A stretch of 64,000 nt of DNA from Deltaproteobacteria bacterium (GTDB lineage: Bacteria; CG2-30-53-67), in NCBI GenBank assembly GCA_013151235.1, contig JAADIO010000046.1:1-64000 (forward strand). Direction: 5' to 3'. A model generated the notes under the pieces. It was not told where the DNA came from and did not search any database. It saw only the letters and a list, made by a program, of their open reading frames with translations. Shown here piece by piece: positions 3,883 through 46,112 of the stretch (the stretch's first letter is position 1; each line of letters begins with the position of its first letter). A program made the position numbers and the translations under genes.

Positions 3883-4449
3883 ATGTTGTTTATGATTGAT
3901 AACTACGATTCCTTTACGTATAACCTCGTTCAGTATCTCGGAGAGCTGGGCGAGGAACCGGTGGTCTACCGCAACGACCGGATCACCGTCGGGGAAATCG
4001 AAGCGATGAAGCCGGACCGTCTGGTGATTTCGCCCGGTCCCTGCACGCCGAAGGAAGCGGGAATCTCGGTTGAGGTGATCCGGCATTTTGCCGGGAAGCT
4101 TCCGATCCTCGGCGTCTGTCTGGGACACCAGTCGATCGGGGCCGCCTTCGGCGCCGAGATTGTCGGGGCGAAAAAACTGATGCACGGCAAGACCTCTCAG
4201 GTAAAACATGACGGGAAGGGGGTCTTCCGGGGGCTTCCAAATCCGTTTACGGCGACCCGTTATCATTCGCTGGTCATCGAGCGGGGAAGCCTTCCCGATG
4301 ATCTTCTGGTGACCGCCGAGGCGGAGGACGGGGAGATTATGGGGATCCGGCATCGAAGCCTGCCCATCGAAGGGGTCCAGTTCCATCCGGAATCGATCCT
4401 CACTGAAGTGGGCCATGATCTTTTACGGAATTTTCTGCGGATAGGTTGA
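3883..4449 (+). CDS. trpG: Anthranilate synthase component II (glutamine amidotransferase)
   Basis: A 188-residue class I glutamine amidotransferase that supplies ammonia to TrpE. The catalytic triad is visible: C79 in LGVCLGHQ, then H168 and E170 in FHPESI. Conserved SPGPCTP and MHGKTSQV loops are present. Proteins of this type often double as PabA for folate synthesis; no pabB or pabC lies in the window, though folC does. ATG 3883 is used here; ATG 3892 is an alternative. The GGGGG tract near 3869 is the only ribosome-site candidate. Confidence 0.95.
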
Positions 4450-4494
4450 GGGGACTGTGCCGGGGCGACGAATCGTTGAATTTTCGCAGGGAGT

Positions 4495-5517
4495 ATGATG
4501 ATGATTGTCAATGCGATCAAGAAGATCGTCGAGAGGGAAGACCTGGATCGGGAGGCCTGTTACGGCGCCATGGACGATATCATGGGCGGGCGGGCGACGC
4601 CGGCCCAGATTGCATCGTTTATCACGGCCCTTAGGATGAAGGGGGAGACGGTGGAAGAGATCGCCGCCTGCGCCCGGGTGATGCGGGACCGGCTGATCCG
4701 GGTCGAGGTGGACCGTGAAGGGCTGGTCGACACCTGCGGGACCGGCGGAGACGGCGCCCGGACCTTCAACATCTCCACCACGGCGGCCTTCGTTGTCGCC
4801 GGGGCCGGGATCCCCGTGGCCAAACACGGGAACCGTTCCGTTTCGAGTAAGAGCGGGAGCGCCGATCTTTTTGCCGCCCTGGGAGTGAATATCGAAGCGG
4901 GTATCGATGTGGTGAAACGGTGTATCGCCGAGGCGGGGATCGGTTTTCTCTTTGCGCCCCTTCTCCACGGTGCGATGAAGCATGCCATCGGCCCCCGGAG
5001 GGAGATCGGGATCCGGACGGTCTTCAATATCCTGGGACCCCTGACCAATCCGGCGGGAGCGAAGCGGCAGGTGGTCGGGGTCTTCTCCGGTGAGCTGACG
5101 GAACCGATCTGTGAGGTCTTAAATGAACTCGGTTGTGAGCGGGCCTATGTGGTTCACGGTCATGACGGTCTGGACGAGATTACCGCGACCGGCGGAACAC
5201 GAATTTCGGAGCTTAAAAACGGCAGGGTGTTGACCTTCGACCTCGATCCCGCCGACTACGGTTTTCCCTGCTGTCGTTCCGGGGATCTTAGGGGCGGGGA
5301 TGCAAAGCTCAATGCCGGGATCACCCTGGCGATCCTGAACGGGGAGACCGGGCCGAAGCGGGATGTTACCCTGCTCAATGCTGCGGCGGCGATACACGTC
5401 GGGGGTGTTGGGAAGGATTTCGGCGAGGCCCTCGATGCCGCCCGGGAATCGATCGATTCGGGACGGGCCCTCAAATGCCTGGAGGAGATGAAACGGATCA
5501 GCAATGAGCCGGTCTGA
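4495..5517 (+). CDS. trpD: Anthranilate phosphoribosyltransferase
   Basis: A 340-residue enzyme that joins anthranilate to PRPP. Residues 80-84 show the [10 protein letters not shown] phosphoribosyl-binding loop. [16 protein letters not shown] and the GPLTNPA block that follow are family hallmarks. It stands alone rather than fused to TrpG. AGGGAG immediately before the ATG-ATG-ATG run sets the start at 4495. It is 45 bases after trpG, in the same operon. Confidence 0.97.
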
Positions 5518-5608
5518 CTTTCCCTTCGTATATCCTGACTTATTTTTCTCCGGTATTTCCATGATCCGGCTGCACGAGGGAAGGAAAAACAAAAAGGGTT
5601 TGTAAGCC

Positions 5609-6403
5609 TTGATTCTGGATGATATAGTGGCGAAGGTTCGCGGGCGTCTTGCCGAAAGGAAGACGTTGACGCCGCTGCCGGTACTGCAGAGACAGGCGGA
5701 GGCGCAGCCGGGGTGTCTCGATTTTGCCGGGGCGATCGCGGGGAGAGAGAAGAAGACAATCCGGGTGATCGCGGAAGTGAAGAAGGCTTCTCCCTCCAAG
5801 GGAGTCATCCGGGAGAATTTCGATCCGGTTGGAATCGCCCGGGACTATGAACAGTCCGGTGCCGCGGCGGTCTCCGTCCTGACGGAAGAGGATTTTTTCC
5901 AGGGTCGTCCTGATTTTCTTTCTTCAATCCGGAAGGCCGTCTCCGTTCCGTTGCTGCGGAAGGATTTTATAATCGACCCCTACCAGGTCCGGGAGGCGCG
6001 GGCATTGGGGGCCGATGCCTTTCTCTTGATCGTGGCGCTTCTCGATAAGCAAAAACTTGAGGAGCTGATCCTGTTGGGACGAGAGATCGGTATGCAGGCG
6101 TTGGTGGAGGTCCACTCCGGGGAGGAACTGGACCGGGCGCTGGACACTTCTGCCGGGATCATCGGGATCAACAACCGGGACCTTGCGACCTTTGCCACCG
6201 ACCTGGAAACCACCTTCCGGCTGCGTGAACGGATCGGTGCGGACCGGATCGTCGTCAGCGAAAGCGGGATCCGGGAGGCTGCGGATCTTGTCCGTCTTCA
6301 GAAGGCGGGTGTCGATGCCGTGCTGGTGGGGGAAACGCTGATGCGAGCTCCGCGTCCCGGGGAACAATTGCAGGCCCTTCTTCCGAAAGGACCGGCGGCA
6401 TGA
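5609..6403 (+). CDS. trpC: Indole-3-glycerol phosphate synthase
   Basis: A 264-residue TIM-barrel enzyme that closes the indole ring from the carboxyphenylamino-deoxyribulose phosphate made by TrpF. Visible motifs are AEVKKASPSKG (catalytic Lys and phosphate side), LLRKDFII, GINNRDL and VSESGI. The frame starts at TTG 5609, the only sensible N-terminus for the family (ILDDIVAKVRGRL). There are 91 bases after trpD without a terminator. The 3' end overlaps trpF by ATGA. Confidence 0.96.
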   Translation: MILDDIVAKVRGRLAERKTLTPLPVLQRQAEAQPGCLDFAGAIAGREKKTIRVIAEVKKASPSKGVIRENFDPVGIARDYEQSGAAAVSVLTEEDFFQGRPDFLSSIRKAVSVPLLRKDFIIDPYQVREARALGADAFLLIVALLDKQKLEELILLGREIGMQALVEVHSGEELDRALDTSAGIIGINNRDLATFATDLETTFRLRERIGADRIVVSESGIREAADLVRLQKAGVDAVLVGETLMRAPRPGEQLQALLPKGPAA

Positions 6404-7047
6404 GGACCCGGATCAAGATCTGCGGGATTACGAATCTCGACGACGCTCTTTTTGCCGTGGAGGCCGGCGCCGATGCCCTGGGATTTGTCTTTCATTCCGG
6501 AAGTCCGCGGCGGATCGATGCGGAGAGCGTCCGGGCGATTGTTCGTCATCTTCCTCCCTTTGCGACGGTGGTCGGGGTTTTCGTGGACGAGAAGATCGAG
6601 ACCGTCCGGGAGATCGCAAGGTATTGTGATCTCGATCTCTGCCAGTTACATGGGGATGAATCGCCGGAGTTCTGCGAATGGTGTGAGCGACGCGTGATCA
6701 AGGCCTTCCGGATCCGGGACCGCTCGTTTCTGGAGGAGATGAAACGTTACGACGTGTCGGGGTTTCTTCTGGATGCCTGGCATCCGGACCGGTACGGGGG
6801 GACGGGAGAGGCCGCCGACCGGACCCTGGCGCAGGAAGCCGCCGGGAAGGAGAGGGTGATCCTGGCCGGGGGCTTGACGCCGGAGAACGTGGGCGAGGCG
6901 ATTGCCCGGGTCCGCCCCTACGGGGTGGATGTCAGCTCCGGCGTGGAGGTGTCACCGGGACAAAAGGATCGGGACAAGGTACGCCGTTTTATCGAAGCGG
7001 TGAATGAGATTGATGCCCGTATCTACGGGCCGGAGAATGCAGTATGA
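6400..7047 (+). CDS. trpF: Phosphoribosylanthranilate isomerase
   Basis: A 215-residue TIM-barrel isomerase acting before TrpC. The N-terminal KICGIT motif contains the catalytic Cys. [18 protein letters not shown] (catalytic Asp region nearby), [10 protein letters not shown] and GVDVSSGVE follow in family order. It is translationally coupled on both sides by four-base overlaps with trpC and trpB. Confidence 0.96.
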
Positions 7048-8260
7048 ATTTGCCTGATGAGCGGGGACACTTTGAGGAGTTCGGTGGGAAGTACGTCCCC
7101 GAGACGCTGATGCCGGCGCTGGATGAGCTGGAACAGGAATACTGGCGGGCCCTCAAAGACCCGGAATTCAAAAAAGAATTTCAGGGCTATCTGCGGGAAT
7201 ATGTCGGGCGTCCCACGCCGCTTTATCTGGCGGAACGGCTGACGGAGCGTCTGCAGGGGGCCCGGATCTATCTGAAGCGGGAGGACCTGAACCATACCGG
7301 AGCGCATAAGATCAACAATGCCATCGGCCAGGTCCTGCTGGCCCGGCGGATGGGAAAGAAACGGATCATTGCCGAGACCGGCGCCGGACAGCACGGCGTG
7401 GCCACGGCCACGGCGGCGGCCATGTTCGGCCTGGAGTGCGAAGTCTTCATGGGGCAGGAGGATATCGAGCGGCAGGCGCTCAACGTCTTCCGGATGCGGC
7501 TCTTAGGGGCCCGCGTGACGCCGGTGACCTCCGGAACCTGTACCCTGAAAGATGCATGCAATGAAGCGATCCGGGACTGGGTCACGAACGTGGAGCATAC
7601 CTATTACATTATCGGTTCCGTCGTCGGTCCCCATCCCTATCCGATGATCGTCCGGGACTTTCAATCGGTCATCGGGGAAGAGGCCCGGGAACAGATTCTG
7701 CAGAAGGAAGGTCGGCCGCCCGATCTCCTGGTCGCCTGTGTGGGCGGGGGAAGCAATGCCATCGGTCTGTTTCATGCATTTGTCGATGACCGTTTGGTAC
7801 GTATGATCGGTGTGGAAGCGGCGGGACTCGGTCTTGAGGTGGAAAACATGCCGCCTCGATCCTGGGAGGCCAACGGGGTGTTCTCCACGGGAACATGAGC
7901 TTTCTGCTCCAGGATGAAAACGGGCAGGTGACCCCGGCCCATTCCATTTCCGCCGGGCTCGACTATCCCGGTGTCGGTCCGGAACACGCCTGGCTGCACA
8001 CCACCGGCCGGGCCGAGTATGTGGCGATCACCGATGCGGAGGCGTTGGAAGGGTTTCAGCTCCTTTCCGAGACGGAAGGGATCATTCCCGCCCTGGAAAG
8101 CGCCCACGCCATCGCCTATCTGAAGAAACTGATCCCCGAGATTCCGAAGGATCGGATCGTGATTCTCAATCTCTCCGGGCGGGGAGACAAAGACGTTACG
8201 CAGGTCGCTGAGATTCTGAAGGGCGACCGGCCCGGTCGTGAAAAGGAAGGAAAATCGTGA
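7044..8260 (+). pseudogene. trpB: Tryptophan synthase beta chain, interrupted by one frameshift
   Basis: The PLP enzyme that joins indole and serine. The first frame (7044-7898) carries K89 of [10 protein letters not shown], the Schiff-base lysine, and the GGGSNAIG phosphate loop. It goes out of frame after [10 protein letters not shown] at about 7839-7843. Read one base over, the sequence continues [30 protein letters not shown] and then in frame to 8260. Restoring one G in the GGTGG tract gives a normal protein of about 405 residues. The single clean change and the intact remainder favour a sequencing or assembly error, or a very recent mutation, over an old pseudogene. Confidence 0.93.
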
Positions 8261-40521: not shown

Positions 40522-40643
40522 CGGCCTTCCCTGTGCCTGAAGGATTGCCCCGGTAGCTGAGCGTTATCTGCAACGAGTTATGCGGCATCGCTGGGAAATC
40601 ACCCGGCGGTACTGTGCCGCCTCTTACGGAATCGATTCCGTCC

Positions 40644-41816
40644 ATGGTGAGAACCGGCCTTGACGAGATCCGGAGTGGACTTCCCTCCTTCCTGAAAGAA
40701 GACCGTATCGGTCTCCTGGCCCACCCGGCCTCGGTGGACTCCCGACTCGTCCATGCCCGGGAGATCTGTTCGAAAATCTTTTCAAACCGGCTGACGGTCC
40801 TCTTTTCCCCCCAACACGGCATCTTCGGCGAACAACAGGACAACATGGTCGAATCCGCACACGGGATCGATCCGGACCTGGGGATCCCGGTTTACAGCCT
40901 CTATTCCGAAGTCCGGAAACCGACGCCGGAGATGTTCAGCGAAATCGATACGTTGGTGGTGGATCTCCAGGATGTGGGGACCCGGGTCTATACCTTCATC
41001 TACACACTGGCCAACTGTATGGATGCGGCACGGGAGGCCGGGATCCGGATCGTGGTCCTTGACCGGCCCAATCCGATCGGCGGAATTGCCGTGGAAGGGA
41101 ATCTTCTTCGGGAAGATCATTCCTCCTTCGTCGGACGATTCCCCATTCCCATGCGCCACGGCATGACGATCGGTGAACTGGCCGGGATGTTCAATAACGC
41201 CTTCGGGATCGGTTGCGATCTGGAGGTGATTTCCATGCGGGGATGGCGGCGGGGGATGTATTTTGCAGAGACCGGTCTTCCCTGGGTTTTGCCGTCGCCC
41301 AACCTTCCCACACCGGAGACGGCCCTGGTCTATCCCGGTCAGGTTCTTCTGGAGGGGACCAACCTCTCCGAAGGGCGGGGGACGACCCGTCCTTTTGAAC
41401 TTTTCGGGGCGCCCTACCTCGATACGAAAAGGGCGGCGGAACGTCTGGCGGCATACGATCTTCCCGGCGTCATTTTCCGGGAGCACCATTTTCTTCCCAC
41501 CTTCCAGAAGTGGGAGGGAACCCTCTGTCATGGGTTCCAACTCCATGTGACCGACCGGAAGGCCTTCCGGCCTTATCGCTCGACCCTGGCCGTTCTCCAG
41601 TCGGTTTTATCCTCCTGCCCGGGGAAATTTGAATGGCGGAAGCCCCCTTATGAATATGAGACGAAGAAGCTTCCCATTGATATCCTGACAGGCGACCCTG
41701 CCGTCCGTGAAGCCCTGGAAGGGAGGATCGATCCCGTGCGGATGGAAAGGGGATGGGAAGAGGACCTCTCAGCCTTCCGAAAAGATCGGCGGAAGTATCT
41801 CCTCTATCCGGATTGA
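40644..41816 (+). CDS. NamZ/DUF1343-family protein
   Basis: A 390-residue protein of the DUF1343 family, whose characterised member NamZ is an exo-beta-N-acetylmuramidase of peptidoglycan recycling. Visible blocks are RIGLLAHPASVD, LFSPQHGIFGEQQ, VDLQDVGTRVYTFIYTL, VLDRPNPIGG and NLPTPETALVYPGQVLLEGTNLSEGRGTTRPFE. No signal peptide is present, so a cytoplasmic location is likely. The start is uncertain: ATG 40644 matches family N-termini but lacks a ribosome site, and GTG 40614 is possible. It lies between pckA and sthA. Confidence 0.82.
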   Translation: MVRTGLDEIRSGLPSFLKEDRIGLLAHPASVDSRLVHAREICSKIFSNRLTVLFSPQHGIFGEQQDNMVESAHGIDPDLGIPVYSLYSEVRKPTPEMFSEIDTLVVDLQDVGTRVYTFIYTLANCMDAAREAGIRIVVLDRPNPIGGIAVEGNLLREDHSSFVGRFPIPMRHGMTIGELAGMFNNAFGIGCDLEVISMRGWRRGMYFAETGLPWVLPSPNLPTPETALVYPGQVLLEGTNLSEGRGTTRPFELFGAPYLDTKRAAERLAAYDLPGVIFREHHFLPTFQKWEGTLCHGFQLHVTDRKAFRPYRSTLAVLQSVLSSCPGKFEWRKPPYEYETKKLPIDILTGDPAVREALEGRIDPVRMERGWEEDLSAFRKDRRKYLLYPD

Positions 41817-43260: not shown

Positions 43261-43337
43261 AGAATGGCTTAACCCGTTCAGGCCGTTTCAACCGAAAAGC
43301 CCATGTGAATTTGAGGCGGCACATGAAAGGAAAGAAC

Positions 43338-44282
43338 ATGCCGGATAAAAAAGGAGAAACCGTAGAGCGGCAAGGTGTAACCCTCCATCTGAGCCGTCCC
43401 GTGGAAGAGTCTGTCCGCTGGATCGGCCAGAAAGAGATTTTGCAGCAGCTTCTGGCCTGCTGGCTGGTGGTTGACGAAAAGGATCTTCCCCTCTCCCCCC
43501 GGATCACCGGTTTCCCGGGGATCGGCAAAACCACCCTCGCCATGGCGGCTGCCGCCCTGCGGGAGCAGCCGTTATTCGTTTACCAGTGTACCAGCGATAC
43601 CCGGCCCGAGGATCTTCTCGTAACGCCGGTCCTTTCTGAAGCGGGGAGGATCACCTACCATGCCTCCCCCCTGGTCAGTGCCATGCTGACGGGTGGGATC
43701 TGTGTTCTCGACGAAGGCAACCGGATGAACGAGAAGAGCTGGGCCTCGCTCGCCTCTCTCCTTGATTATCGTCGAACGGTGGAATCGATCGTGGCGGGGA
43801 TTACCCTCTCCGCCGATCCGGCCTTTCGATGCTGTGTCACGATGAACGAGGACGAGTCGACATTTGAAATCCCCGACTATATCCTCTCTCGGCTCCATCC
43901 GACCCTGGCCCTCGGGTTCCCGGAGAAGGAGGAAGAGATGGCGATTCTCCGGTATCATCTTCCGTTTGCCGATCAGGAGATCCTCGCCATGACTGTTGAT
44001 TTTCTTCATCGCTCTCACGACCTGAATCTCGATTTTTCCCCTCGCGACGGGATCCAGATCGTGCGTTATGCCATTAAACGGCTGAGCCAGGATCCCGATC
44101 ACCCCCTTTCTCGGGATCGTTTCTGGCGGGAGTCCGTCGAAAAGGTTCTGGGTGAGGACGCCCTGAATATGGAAAAACTGGCGGAACGGAAAAAAGCCGC
44201 CTTTGGAGATGAACCCTCCGCCTTCGGCCTGGGGGACTTCTTCTTCGGTGAAGGGGATCCCCTGAATCCGGACAGGGATTAG
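43338..44282 (+). CDS. MoxR-type AAA+ ATPase
   Basis: A 314-residue AAA+ protein. Walker A is GFPGIGKTT (residues 58-66), Walker B is [10 protein letters not shown] (121-130), sensor 1 is the Asn of CVTMNED (170), and an arginine finger sits in SRLHP (185). The DEGNRM form and overall size fit the MoxR group, which remodels partner proteins together with a second gene. AAAGGAAAG precedes ATG 43338. It is separated by 3 bases from the 608-residue gene, with which it clearly forms a unit. No VWA-domain gene is adjacent. Confidence 0.88.
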
Positions 44283-44285
44283 AAA

Positions 44286-46112
44286 ATGTTTCGTCTCAGC
44301 CCCTCCCTGACCCTCCTGCCCGTCATTCATGAGAGTGGGGACTACGCTCTTACGGTTCGTGAGATGATTCTTGACGGCGATTACGACTGTCTGGCCGTGG
44401 CCCTTCCTCCTTCCTTCGCAGAGGGGGTCCTCCGGGGGATTGATCACTTGCCGGAGATCTCGGTCGTTGTACAAAGGGAACCGGGCGCGCAGGGTTCCAT
44501 GAACTATGTTCCCATTGACCCCTGTCAGGGGATGATCATGGGGATCCGGATTGCCATGCAGGAGCGTATTCCCTGTGAGTTTATCGACCGGGAACTCGAC
44601 CTCTACGAAGTTTATGAGGGCGCTTTTCCCGACCCCTACGCATTGAAAAGGGTTCCCCCCGGTCGATTCCTTGCAGCCCTTCTCCCGGCGATTGAACGAC
44701 CGGCACCGGAGAGCCGGCGGACGCAGCGGATTGCCGCCATGGCCTATCGGCTCCATCTTTTAGAGGAGCACTATCATCATGTTCTTTTCCTCTGCTCCGT
44801 TCTCGACTGGCCCTGGATCCGGGAAGCCTGGCGGGAGGGAAGGCCCTTCTCTCCGGATGAGCCGGTTCTCCCCGATGCCCGGCTTCATCGGGTCTCCGCG
44901 CGCACCCTCTTTTTCATGTTGGGCGAACTCCCCTATATCACCTACCTCTACGAAAAGAGCCGGAAAACCCTCACCTCCGATGCCAACCTCTCCATCGACG
45001 GCGTCAAGGAACTGCTCTTAGAGACGCGGCGGCGATGGGAGAGCCGATACGATCTGCAGGAGCACCATCTCAATCCTCAGGTCTTGAACCTCTACATGAA
45101 ATATGTCCGGAACCTGACCCTCATGGAGCGCCGTTTTACGCCCGATCTTTATACCCTTGCCGTGGCGGCGAAACAGATCGGGGGGGACAGCTTCGCCGTC
45201 TCTCTTGTGGAGACGTCCCGGGATTACCCCTATCAGTCTCAGGACGAGGAAGGATACGACGTCATCCGTTTCGGGATGGAGGAGGGGGAGATGGCCGATG
45301 GCGAAGTGGTGACCCTGAAAAACAGACTGGCCGGGGAACCGAAAACCTGGCGGACGCTTCCTCTGAAACCACAGCCGGAGGTACGAAAGCGGACGATCTG
45401 GAAACAACGCTGGAATCCCTTCGGACAGTGTTCCTGGACCCCTGAGGACAACCGGATCGAAAGCTTCAATCTCCATGTCCGGGAACAGTCGAAGGCTCTC
45501 ATCGGAGAAGATCTGGCCCGGACGGAGAAGTTCGTCACCTCCGTCAAGGACGGGATCGATATCCGGGAGACCTTGCGCCACTGGTATGCGCAGGAGATCT
45601 ATGTCAAGGAGATCCCCCCCTCCCGGGGGCACATCGAGGTGGTGGTCCTGCTTTTTGAGAAGGAGGCCGATTCCGATCGTTACGCCTGGCGGCAGACCTG
45701 GTACGCCGAGCATCATGAGGAGTCGACCCTCTGTTTCTATGCCACCCCTTACCTGGGCAACCTCATCGGTCCCGGAATCGGTCAGTCAACCTATGGCGGT
45801 TGTTTCCTCCTCTTCCCTCCCCGGCCGATCCCCAACGTCTGGGAGGATTCCCGCTTCGACTTTGCCCGGACGCTGGAAGAGCGTCTGGTCGCTGGCGCAC
45901 TTTTTCACTCCTCGCAGAAACTGATCACACTCGTCTCCCCCGGACCGCCTTCGGTTCGGATGCGCCGGATCGCCCGGCAGTACCGAAAAAAGATTCTTCA
46001 CATCCCGCTGAGCCGTTTTTCCCTCCAGACCCTCCAGCGGCTGCGGCGGTTTCATGTCTTGAACGGGAAGCATGTCCGGAGCTTTGCGTCGCAGTTTATA
46101 AGGGATTTTTGA
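44286..46112 (+). CDS. Large protein of unknown function coupled to a MoxR-type ATPase
   Basis: A 608-residue soluble protein that I cannot assign. The N-terminus (PVIHESGDYALTVREMILDGDYDCLAVALPP at residues 12-42, then IPCEFIDREL near 100) has the layout of TraB/ChaN/EreA-like proteins and DUF5682: His near the start, a VAVALP strand, and a late FID strand. The middle is helical and Arg-rich; the C-terminal 200 residues contain GHIEVVVLLFEKEADSD and a YLGNLIGPGIGQSTYGGC segment. It is likely the client or partner of the ATPase 3 bases upstream. No signal peptide or membrane helix. Confidence 0.6.
   Translation: MFRLSPSLTLLPVIHESGDYALTVREMILDGDYDCLAVALPPSFAEGVLRGIDHLPEISVVVQREPGAQGSMNYVPIDPCQGMIMGIRIAMQERIPCEFIDRELDLYEVYEGAFPDPYALKRVPPGRFLAALLPAIERPAPESRRTQRIAAMAYRLHLLEEHYHHVLFLCSVLDWPWIREAWREGRPFSPDEPVLPDARLHRVSARTLFFMLGELPYITYLYEKSRKTLTSDANLSIDGVKELLLETRRRWESRYDLQEHHLNPQVLNLYMKYVRNLTLMERRFTPDLYTLAVAAKQIGGDSFAVSLVETSRDYPYQSQDEEGYDVIRFGMEEGEMADGEVVTLKNRLAGEPKTWRTLPLKPQPEVRKRTIWKQRWNPFGQCSWTPEDNRIESFNLHVREQSKALIGEDLARTEKFVTSVKDGIDIRETLRHWYAQEIYVKEIPPSRGHIEVVVLLFEKEADSDRYAWRQTWYAEHHEESTLCFYATPYLGNLIGPGIGQSTYGGCFLLFPPRPIPNVWEDSRFDFARTLEERLVAGALFHSSQKLITLVSPGPPSVRMRRIARQYRKKILHIPLSRFSLQTLQRLRRFHVLNGKHVRSFASQFIRDF

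Follow-up and report, generated by a model that had tools for sequence, protein, structure and literature searches.

A MoxR-type AAA+ ATPase co-inherited with a TraB-like partner protein that lacks a recognisable VWA domain: a candidate two-component machine

This analysis indicated that a MoxR-type AAA+ ATPase and the protein encoded just downstream of it, in a 64,000-nucleotide stretch of DNA from a Deltaproteobacteria bacterium (contig JAADIO010000046.1; hereafter, the window), are inherited together and very probably work as one machine. The reading that we favour, with a probability of about 0.58, is that the pair constitutes a self-contained two-component remodelling machine of the MoxR type, in which the second protein acts as a dedicated adaptor or effector of TraB-like type. 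The usual view of MoxR ATPases associates them with VWA adaptors; the present pair, which is widespread and strictly co-inherited, has none. No named family accommodates its second protein (hereafter, the partner), whose conservation nevertheless extends over several phyla.

Both open reading frames were confirmed on the same strand (Table 1). The frame of the ATPase begins with a GTG at 43305, and the ATG at 43338 is preceded by a purine-rich sequence, AAAGGAAAG. As the ATPase gene ends at 44282 and that of the partner begins with an ATG at 44286, the three-base gap given in a preliminary description of this locus is borne out, as is the chromosomal housekeeping context described there, the flanks being occupied by pckA, a Si-specific transhydrogenase, a LysR regulator and nuoA, B and D. 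No Rfam family was found in the window. Between pckA and the transhydrogenase gene lies a 400-residue protein (40614-41816) with no NCBIfam match at E 1e-10, which we take to resemble DUF1343 proteins.

Table 1. Positions, within the window, of the two genes and of the motifs and regions discussed in the text.
Feature	Position	Strand	Basis
MoxR-type AAA+ ATPase	43338..44282	+	314 aa from ATG 43338; AAA_5 E 1e-18
Walker A	43509..43535	+	G/P/G/G/K/T invariant, 35 homologues
Walker B, GGICVLDE	43692..43715	+	D136, E137 invariant
Sensor 1 Asn N181, followed by conserved post-sensor-1 loop	43845..43847	+	invariant
Putative arginine finger R196	43890..43892	+	invariant
Partner protein, 608 aa	44286..46112	+	family of >100 homologues; co-occurrence with ATPase
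TraB/DUF5682-homologous region, residues 5-299	44298..45182	+	hhalign to DUF5682 E 7.9e-13
H15, equivalent of first His of TIKI/TraB signature	44328..44330	+	H in 124/130 homologues with a residue there
D174, at second His (GxxH) position of TraB/DUF5682	44805..44807	+	substituted in the window's clade
C-terminal domain, residues 371-608	45396..46109	+	no known family; predicted alpha/beta fold (AF2 models)
E458, end of predicted strand	45657..45659	+	acidic (Asp/Glu) in each of the 136 members of the family
E475-E479, invariant acidic pair	45708..45722	+	conservation
Near-invariant C-terminal tail RRFHVLNGKHVRSFASQFIRDF, candidate docking element	46044..46109	+	H590, L592, R598 invariant, A601 nearly

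The partner gave no match up to E = 1 in Pfam, NCBIfam or PADLOC, no sequence relative in the PDB and no useful PHROG. Its homologues, at about 80 loci, are full-length, mostly stop-free and 43-74% identical, and for this reason it is considered a real gene. These relatives came from a whole-genome search and from a scan of 85,462 species genomes, which relied on two short conserved peptides and thus under-samples the family; the scan yielded 107 relatives, mostly from Nitrospinota and Planctomycetota, of which 80 were kept. A search of 335 genomes placed the family in the window's own family, in Nitrospinota and in scattered distant bacteria, and the pair also occurs in Chlamydiota. Ribonuclease T2 was matched by 15 of 57 family members (best E 0.0044), the window protein itself giving no such match, and no clear match to an unrelated, well-studied family emerged. 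One Nitrospinaceae metagenome-assembled genome (OFTM7) carries two different copies of the partner (L014 and L022), through duplication or a binning mixture. In another genome (G298; L148, 7039-10542) the homologue lies within a 1167-residue open frame with about 500 extra N-terminal residues, which could reflect either a fusion or just the openness of a GC-rich frame.

Association of the two genes was retained well beyond their adjacency. The ATPase lies upstream of the partner at 64 of the 80 loci, that is, 64 of the 74 that could be evaluated, so that this gene order is not due to chance; of the 16 loci with no adjacent ATPase, six are cut by a contig end and ten are planctomycetes. Nine of these ten were searched, and an orthologue of the ATPase was found elsewhere in the genome in eight of them (E < 1e-137). 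Profile searches of 244 Planctomycetota genomes detected the partner in 44 and the ATPase in 45: both were present in 44 genomes, the ATPase only in one, the partner only in none, and neither in 199 (Fisher p 7e-48, on the incorrect assumption that the genomes are independent). That discordant genomes are nearly absent is unaffected by this non-independence, and a sharp score gap separates the ATPase from its paralogues, no ATPase match falling between 1e-110 and the limit of 1e-40. The two genes are adjacent in 14 of the 44 pair genomes, near each other in four and unlinked in 26, where they lie 0.2-4.6 Mb apart on the same contig (15 genomes) or on different contigs (11 genomes). Such co-inheritance in the absence of linkage strongly supports a shared function. 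The ATPase was also present in all 11 distantly related partner-carrying genomes checked, in some of them adjacent to the partner, while a missing ATPase is uninformative in one further genome (G001), where the partner is cut by the contig start. Homologues of the partner are not, as a rule, found without the ATPase, though the genes are often unlinked. The only one of the 244 planctomycete genomes with the ATPase and no detected partner (G180:C1:213938-214870) has this gene on a 6.1 Mb contig, which makes assembly breakage unlikely.

The pair is as a rule present in one copy per genome and slowly evolving. Its neighbours differ between lineages and, local synteny within Nitrospinota apart, include no conserved third gene; no copy was found in phage records. 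The sole mobile-looking context seen was plasmid pS13 of Neochlamydia sp. S13 (L260, 7093-9806), where the pair, annotated as an AAA family ATPase and a hypothetical protein, has a recombinase and a group II intron in its vicinity.

The ATPase matched both AAA_5 and AAA_3 in Pfam, and Walker A (G69-T76), Walker B (D136-E137), N181, R196 and R247 (P0002 numbering) were invariant in an alignment of 35 homologues, in line with the earlier assignment to MoxR-type ATPases with intact Walker A, Walker B, sensor 1 and arginine finger. The ESTFEIPD loop following sensor 1 was strongly conserved. Assembly into an AAA+ hexamer is to be expected of such a protein. The best named matches were GvpN (far below its cut-off), NorQ, CbbQ and midasin, and a profile search of the PDB gave midasin, CbbQ and NorQ; no match to Pfam CbbQ_C was reported. 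NorQ is the nearest characterised protein by sequence (29.5%), although in a tree of 45 sequences it sits on a long branch and is not firmly placeable. In the same tree, the ATPases of the pair were separate from 16 YehL ATPases of DUF5682 operons, which formed a group of their own and were 24-28% identical to them in local matches; the pair's ATPase is thus, on this sequence comparison, a MoxR lineage distinct from YehL. These ATPases remain about 50-68% identical even where identity between partners drops to about 28%.

Sequence comparison relates the N-terminal half of the partner to DUF5682 and the TraB superfamily. Alignment of a profile of 135 relatives with one of 31 DUF5682 proteins (hhalign) covered partner residues 5-299 at E 7.9e-13, against 0.19 for a reversed profile and 0.13-0.87 for 20 column shuffles, giving statistical support to homology with the N-terminal half of DUF5682 (YehM in E. 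coli). Residues 5-186 also aligned with TraB (E 7.2e-6; reversed 0.27), and DUF5682 itself with TraB (E 2.2e-8). The region comprises an alpha/beta core (about 1-190) and a helical region (about 190-310). For the AlphaFold2 model of the partner (mean pLDDT 83.7, pTM 0.76), the best viral structural match in Foldseek was a Marseillevirus TraB family protein (prob 1.00, E 4.7e-3). The Pfam model of DUF5682 (PF18934) did not match the window protein, and matched 3 of 57 relatives with a best E of 0.08; erythromycin esterase (PF05139) was not significant (E 0.027, with four EreA sequences only). The preliminary description had seen a TraB/ChaN/EreA- and DUF5682-like layout in the first 110 residues: the TraB/DUF5682 part holds and reaches about residue 300, whereas similarity to EreA was undetected with those four sequences.

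Two histidines, of which the second lies within GxxH, are common to TraB and DUF5682, and DUF5682 has an invariant Glu in addition. H15, E39, G171 and H174 are kept together in 16 deep-branching members of the partner family, and this joint retention provides independent support for the proposed homology. About 90 sequences, including that of the window, have H15, Pro or Ala at position 39, Ser at 171 and Asp at 174; with H15, A39, S171 and D174, the window protein lacks the TraB-type two-His/Glu signature. Such a concerted loss suggests disuse of the ancestral putative active site in the window's clade. In this respect the partner resembles PMT, another member of the TIKI/TraB superfamily without the motif, for which no endopeptidase activity was seen in the reported assay (PMC6254334). 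The partner differs from the TIKI/TraB/PrgY superfamily (PF01963 and relatives), to which residues 5-186 are homologous, in having lost the signature in most members while deep ones keep His/Glu/GxxH, in carrying a large unrelated C-terminal half, and in being tied to a MoxR ATPase.

This C-terminal half is the better conserved, with 38 positions conserved at 97% or more in residues 371-608 vs 16 in residues 1-310. E387, D388, D422, E475 and E479 are near-invariant, together with an acidic residue at 458. The tail, of consensus RRFHVLNGKxVRSYAxxFI, is near-invariant, and its last 13 residues (596-608) had pLDDT below 50 when modelled alone; a tail that is conserved yet of low confidence in isolation is what one would expect of a docking element. 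No match was obtained between the C-terminal half and DUF5682 (E 0.25-0.26, equal to controls), nor with YehP, YehQ or NorD. A cryptic VWA domain was considered here, a motif before residue 460 being like the segment that precedes the VWA of CoxE, YehP and NorD, and profile alignment pointing to the same place; the best E of the VWA profile (0.007) was rejected, as 2 of 300 shuffles scored higher and a reversed profile reached 24.4 bits against 25.1, and no MIDAS motif (DxSxS) occurs at the VWA-matching place. The absence of a recognisable VWA domain agrees with what had been claimed for the partner.

The full-length partner gave nothing usable against the PDB in Foldseek. A separate model of the C-terminal domain (pLDDT 70) matched many chains of RNase H fold, among them RNase HII, PIWI domains of SPARTA Argonautes and chains from ribosomes, the last presumably of the S11 type, judging by chain letter. 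Likeness to this fold recurred in several Foldseek listings, but none of the matches was significant (best E 0.027, prob 0.28) and the catalytic residues were unmatched, so that the predicted fold may be said to resemble RNase H loosely, and the likeness to Argonaute PIWI and other RNase H-like proteins is one of modelled fold only.

In the machine that we propose, the 608-residue partner would fill the role held by a VWA protein (NorD, ViaA, YehP) in other MoxR systems. Its C-terminal half and tail would probably dock on the ring, or else carry a ring-controlled activity, and ATP hydrolysis would exert a pull on the partner or shift its position, and so act by way of the partner on a client. 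Physical interaction and hexamer are here presumed, and the direction of force is proposed by analogy with NorQD. Cryo-EM of NorQD showed that the MoxR ring engages its partner through the pore and the partner's C-terminus: a finger of the VWA domain enters the pore, the post-sensor-1 loop is contacted by the C-terminus of NorD, and a linker is put under strain when ATP is hydrolysed (PMC13036017). By this analogy, the conserved tail of the partner and the ESTFEIPD loop of the ATPase would be natural candidates for a similar contact. NorQ-NorD and CbbQ-CbbO, which include the nearest characterised ATPases, have the same two-gene layout of ATPase and partner; they differ from the window pair in that the latter has no client operon alongside and its partner is not homologous to NorD. 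A precedent lies in DUF5682, its homology with the partner being combined with a YehL-type MoxR ATPase at 15 of the 16 DUF5682 loci read. The pair links the unstudied DUF5682/YehM to the TraB superfamily and shows that no fewer than two separate lineages of MoxR have come to be paired with TraB-like proteins. With only two proteins, it is also a minimal system for asking what such ATPases do to their partners.

Several points nevertheless weigh against an adaptor. How NorQD makes contact was worked out with a VWA protein, and the C-terminal domain of the partner is not demonstrably a VWA; frequent unlinking is unusual for obligate subunits of a complex with fixed stoichiometry; and co-occurrence fits equally well with the main rival reading, in which the client would be the partner itself. 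It would then be an enzyme, catalytic in its C-terminal domain, and the MoxR ATPase would activate it or supply it with metal. NorQ/NorD acts likewise on nitric oxide reductase. A client would easily tolerate chromosomal separation, and both the near-invariant acidic residues of the best-conserved half and the lack of any other gene conserved beside the pair would suit it. We consider this rival unlikely, though to be taken seriously, because known MoxR clients are usually served via a VWA adaptor, none of which is encoded nearby, and because DUF5682, to which the partner is related, is encoded together with a MoxR ATPase and a VWA protein and is not an obvious client itself.

A bolder version, in which the partner would be an ATP-controlled enzyme operated by the MoxR ATPase and composed of a TraB-like domain with a lost signature and a catalytic domain of RNase H-like fold with an invariant acidic cluster (D/E458, E475, E479), appears doubtful to us. 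If true, the substrate of this MoxR machine would be nucleic acid or a metal-dependent hydrolase, and we know of no precedent for this among characterised MoxR systems.

The loose RNase H likeness and the copy on the Neochlamydia plasmid could also point to a module of biological conflict (anti-phage or stress immunity) with its effector in the C-terminal domain, and MoxR-centred systems of that kind have been described in multicellular bacteria (PMC7159879), in a paper from which TraB terms are absent. This seems improbable for a slowly evolving pair that is usually single-copy, sits among housekeeping neighbours, has no copy in phage records and matches no PADLOC model for anti-phage systems, the flanks of the window pair containing no recognised defence gene.

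The last reading, that the unit is a reduced or defective form of a multi-gene system, had been put forward in the preliminary description and does not hold up. The system in question would be of the YehL-YehM-YehP-YehQ type (MoxR-DUF5682-VWA-SWIM): the DUF5682 loci read have, besides the ATPase, a YehP-type VWA gene (15 of 16, at one of them fused to the DUF5682 gene) and in a few cases YehQ, and yehLMPQ of E. coli has the same MoxR/DUF5682/VWA layout. As in the window pair, a MoxR ATPase adjoins a protein with a TraB/DUF5682-type N-terminal half; the window's clade differs in having lost the TraB-type signature. No VWA gene was recognised next to the window pair or as a recurrent neighbour of its homologues, nor does the pair include a SWIM gene, and the one strong VWA_CoxE gene of the genome adjoins its own MoxR gene on another contig. 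Reduction is very improbable, and already disfavoured, since N-terminal homology is set against a two-gene form that stays intact across many phyla, an ATPase group apart from YehL, an unrelated C-terminal half, and the coexistence of pair and DUF5682 in 9 of the 44 planctomycete pair genomes, from which it follows that neither replaces the other. A literature search returned no mention of 'DUF5682', and yehL/M/P in genome reports only. Among planctomycetes, a 1200-residue frame (L245; G191:C1, ORF 4321-7923) gave matches to DUF5682 (YehM) as well as to YehP, a VWA protein, and constitutes a natural fusion of the two, and several other planctomycete DUF5682 matches lie in frames of about 1200 aa.
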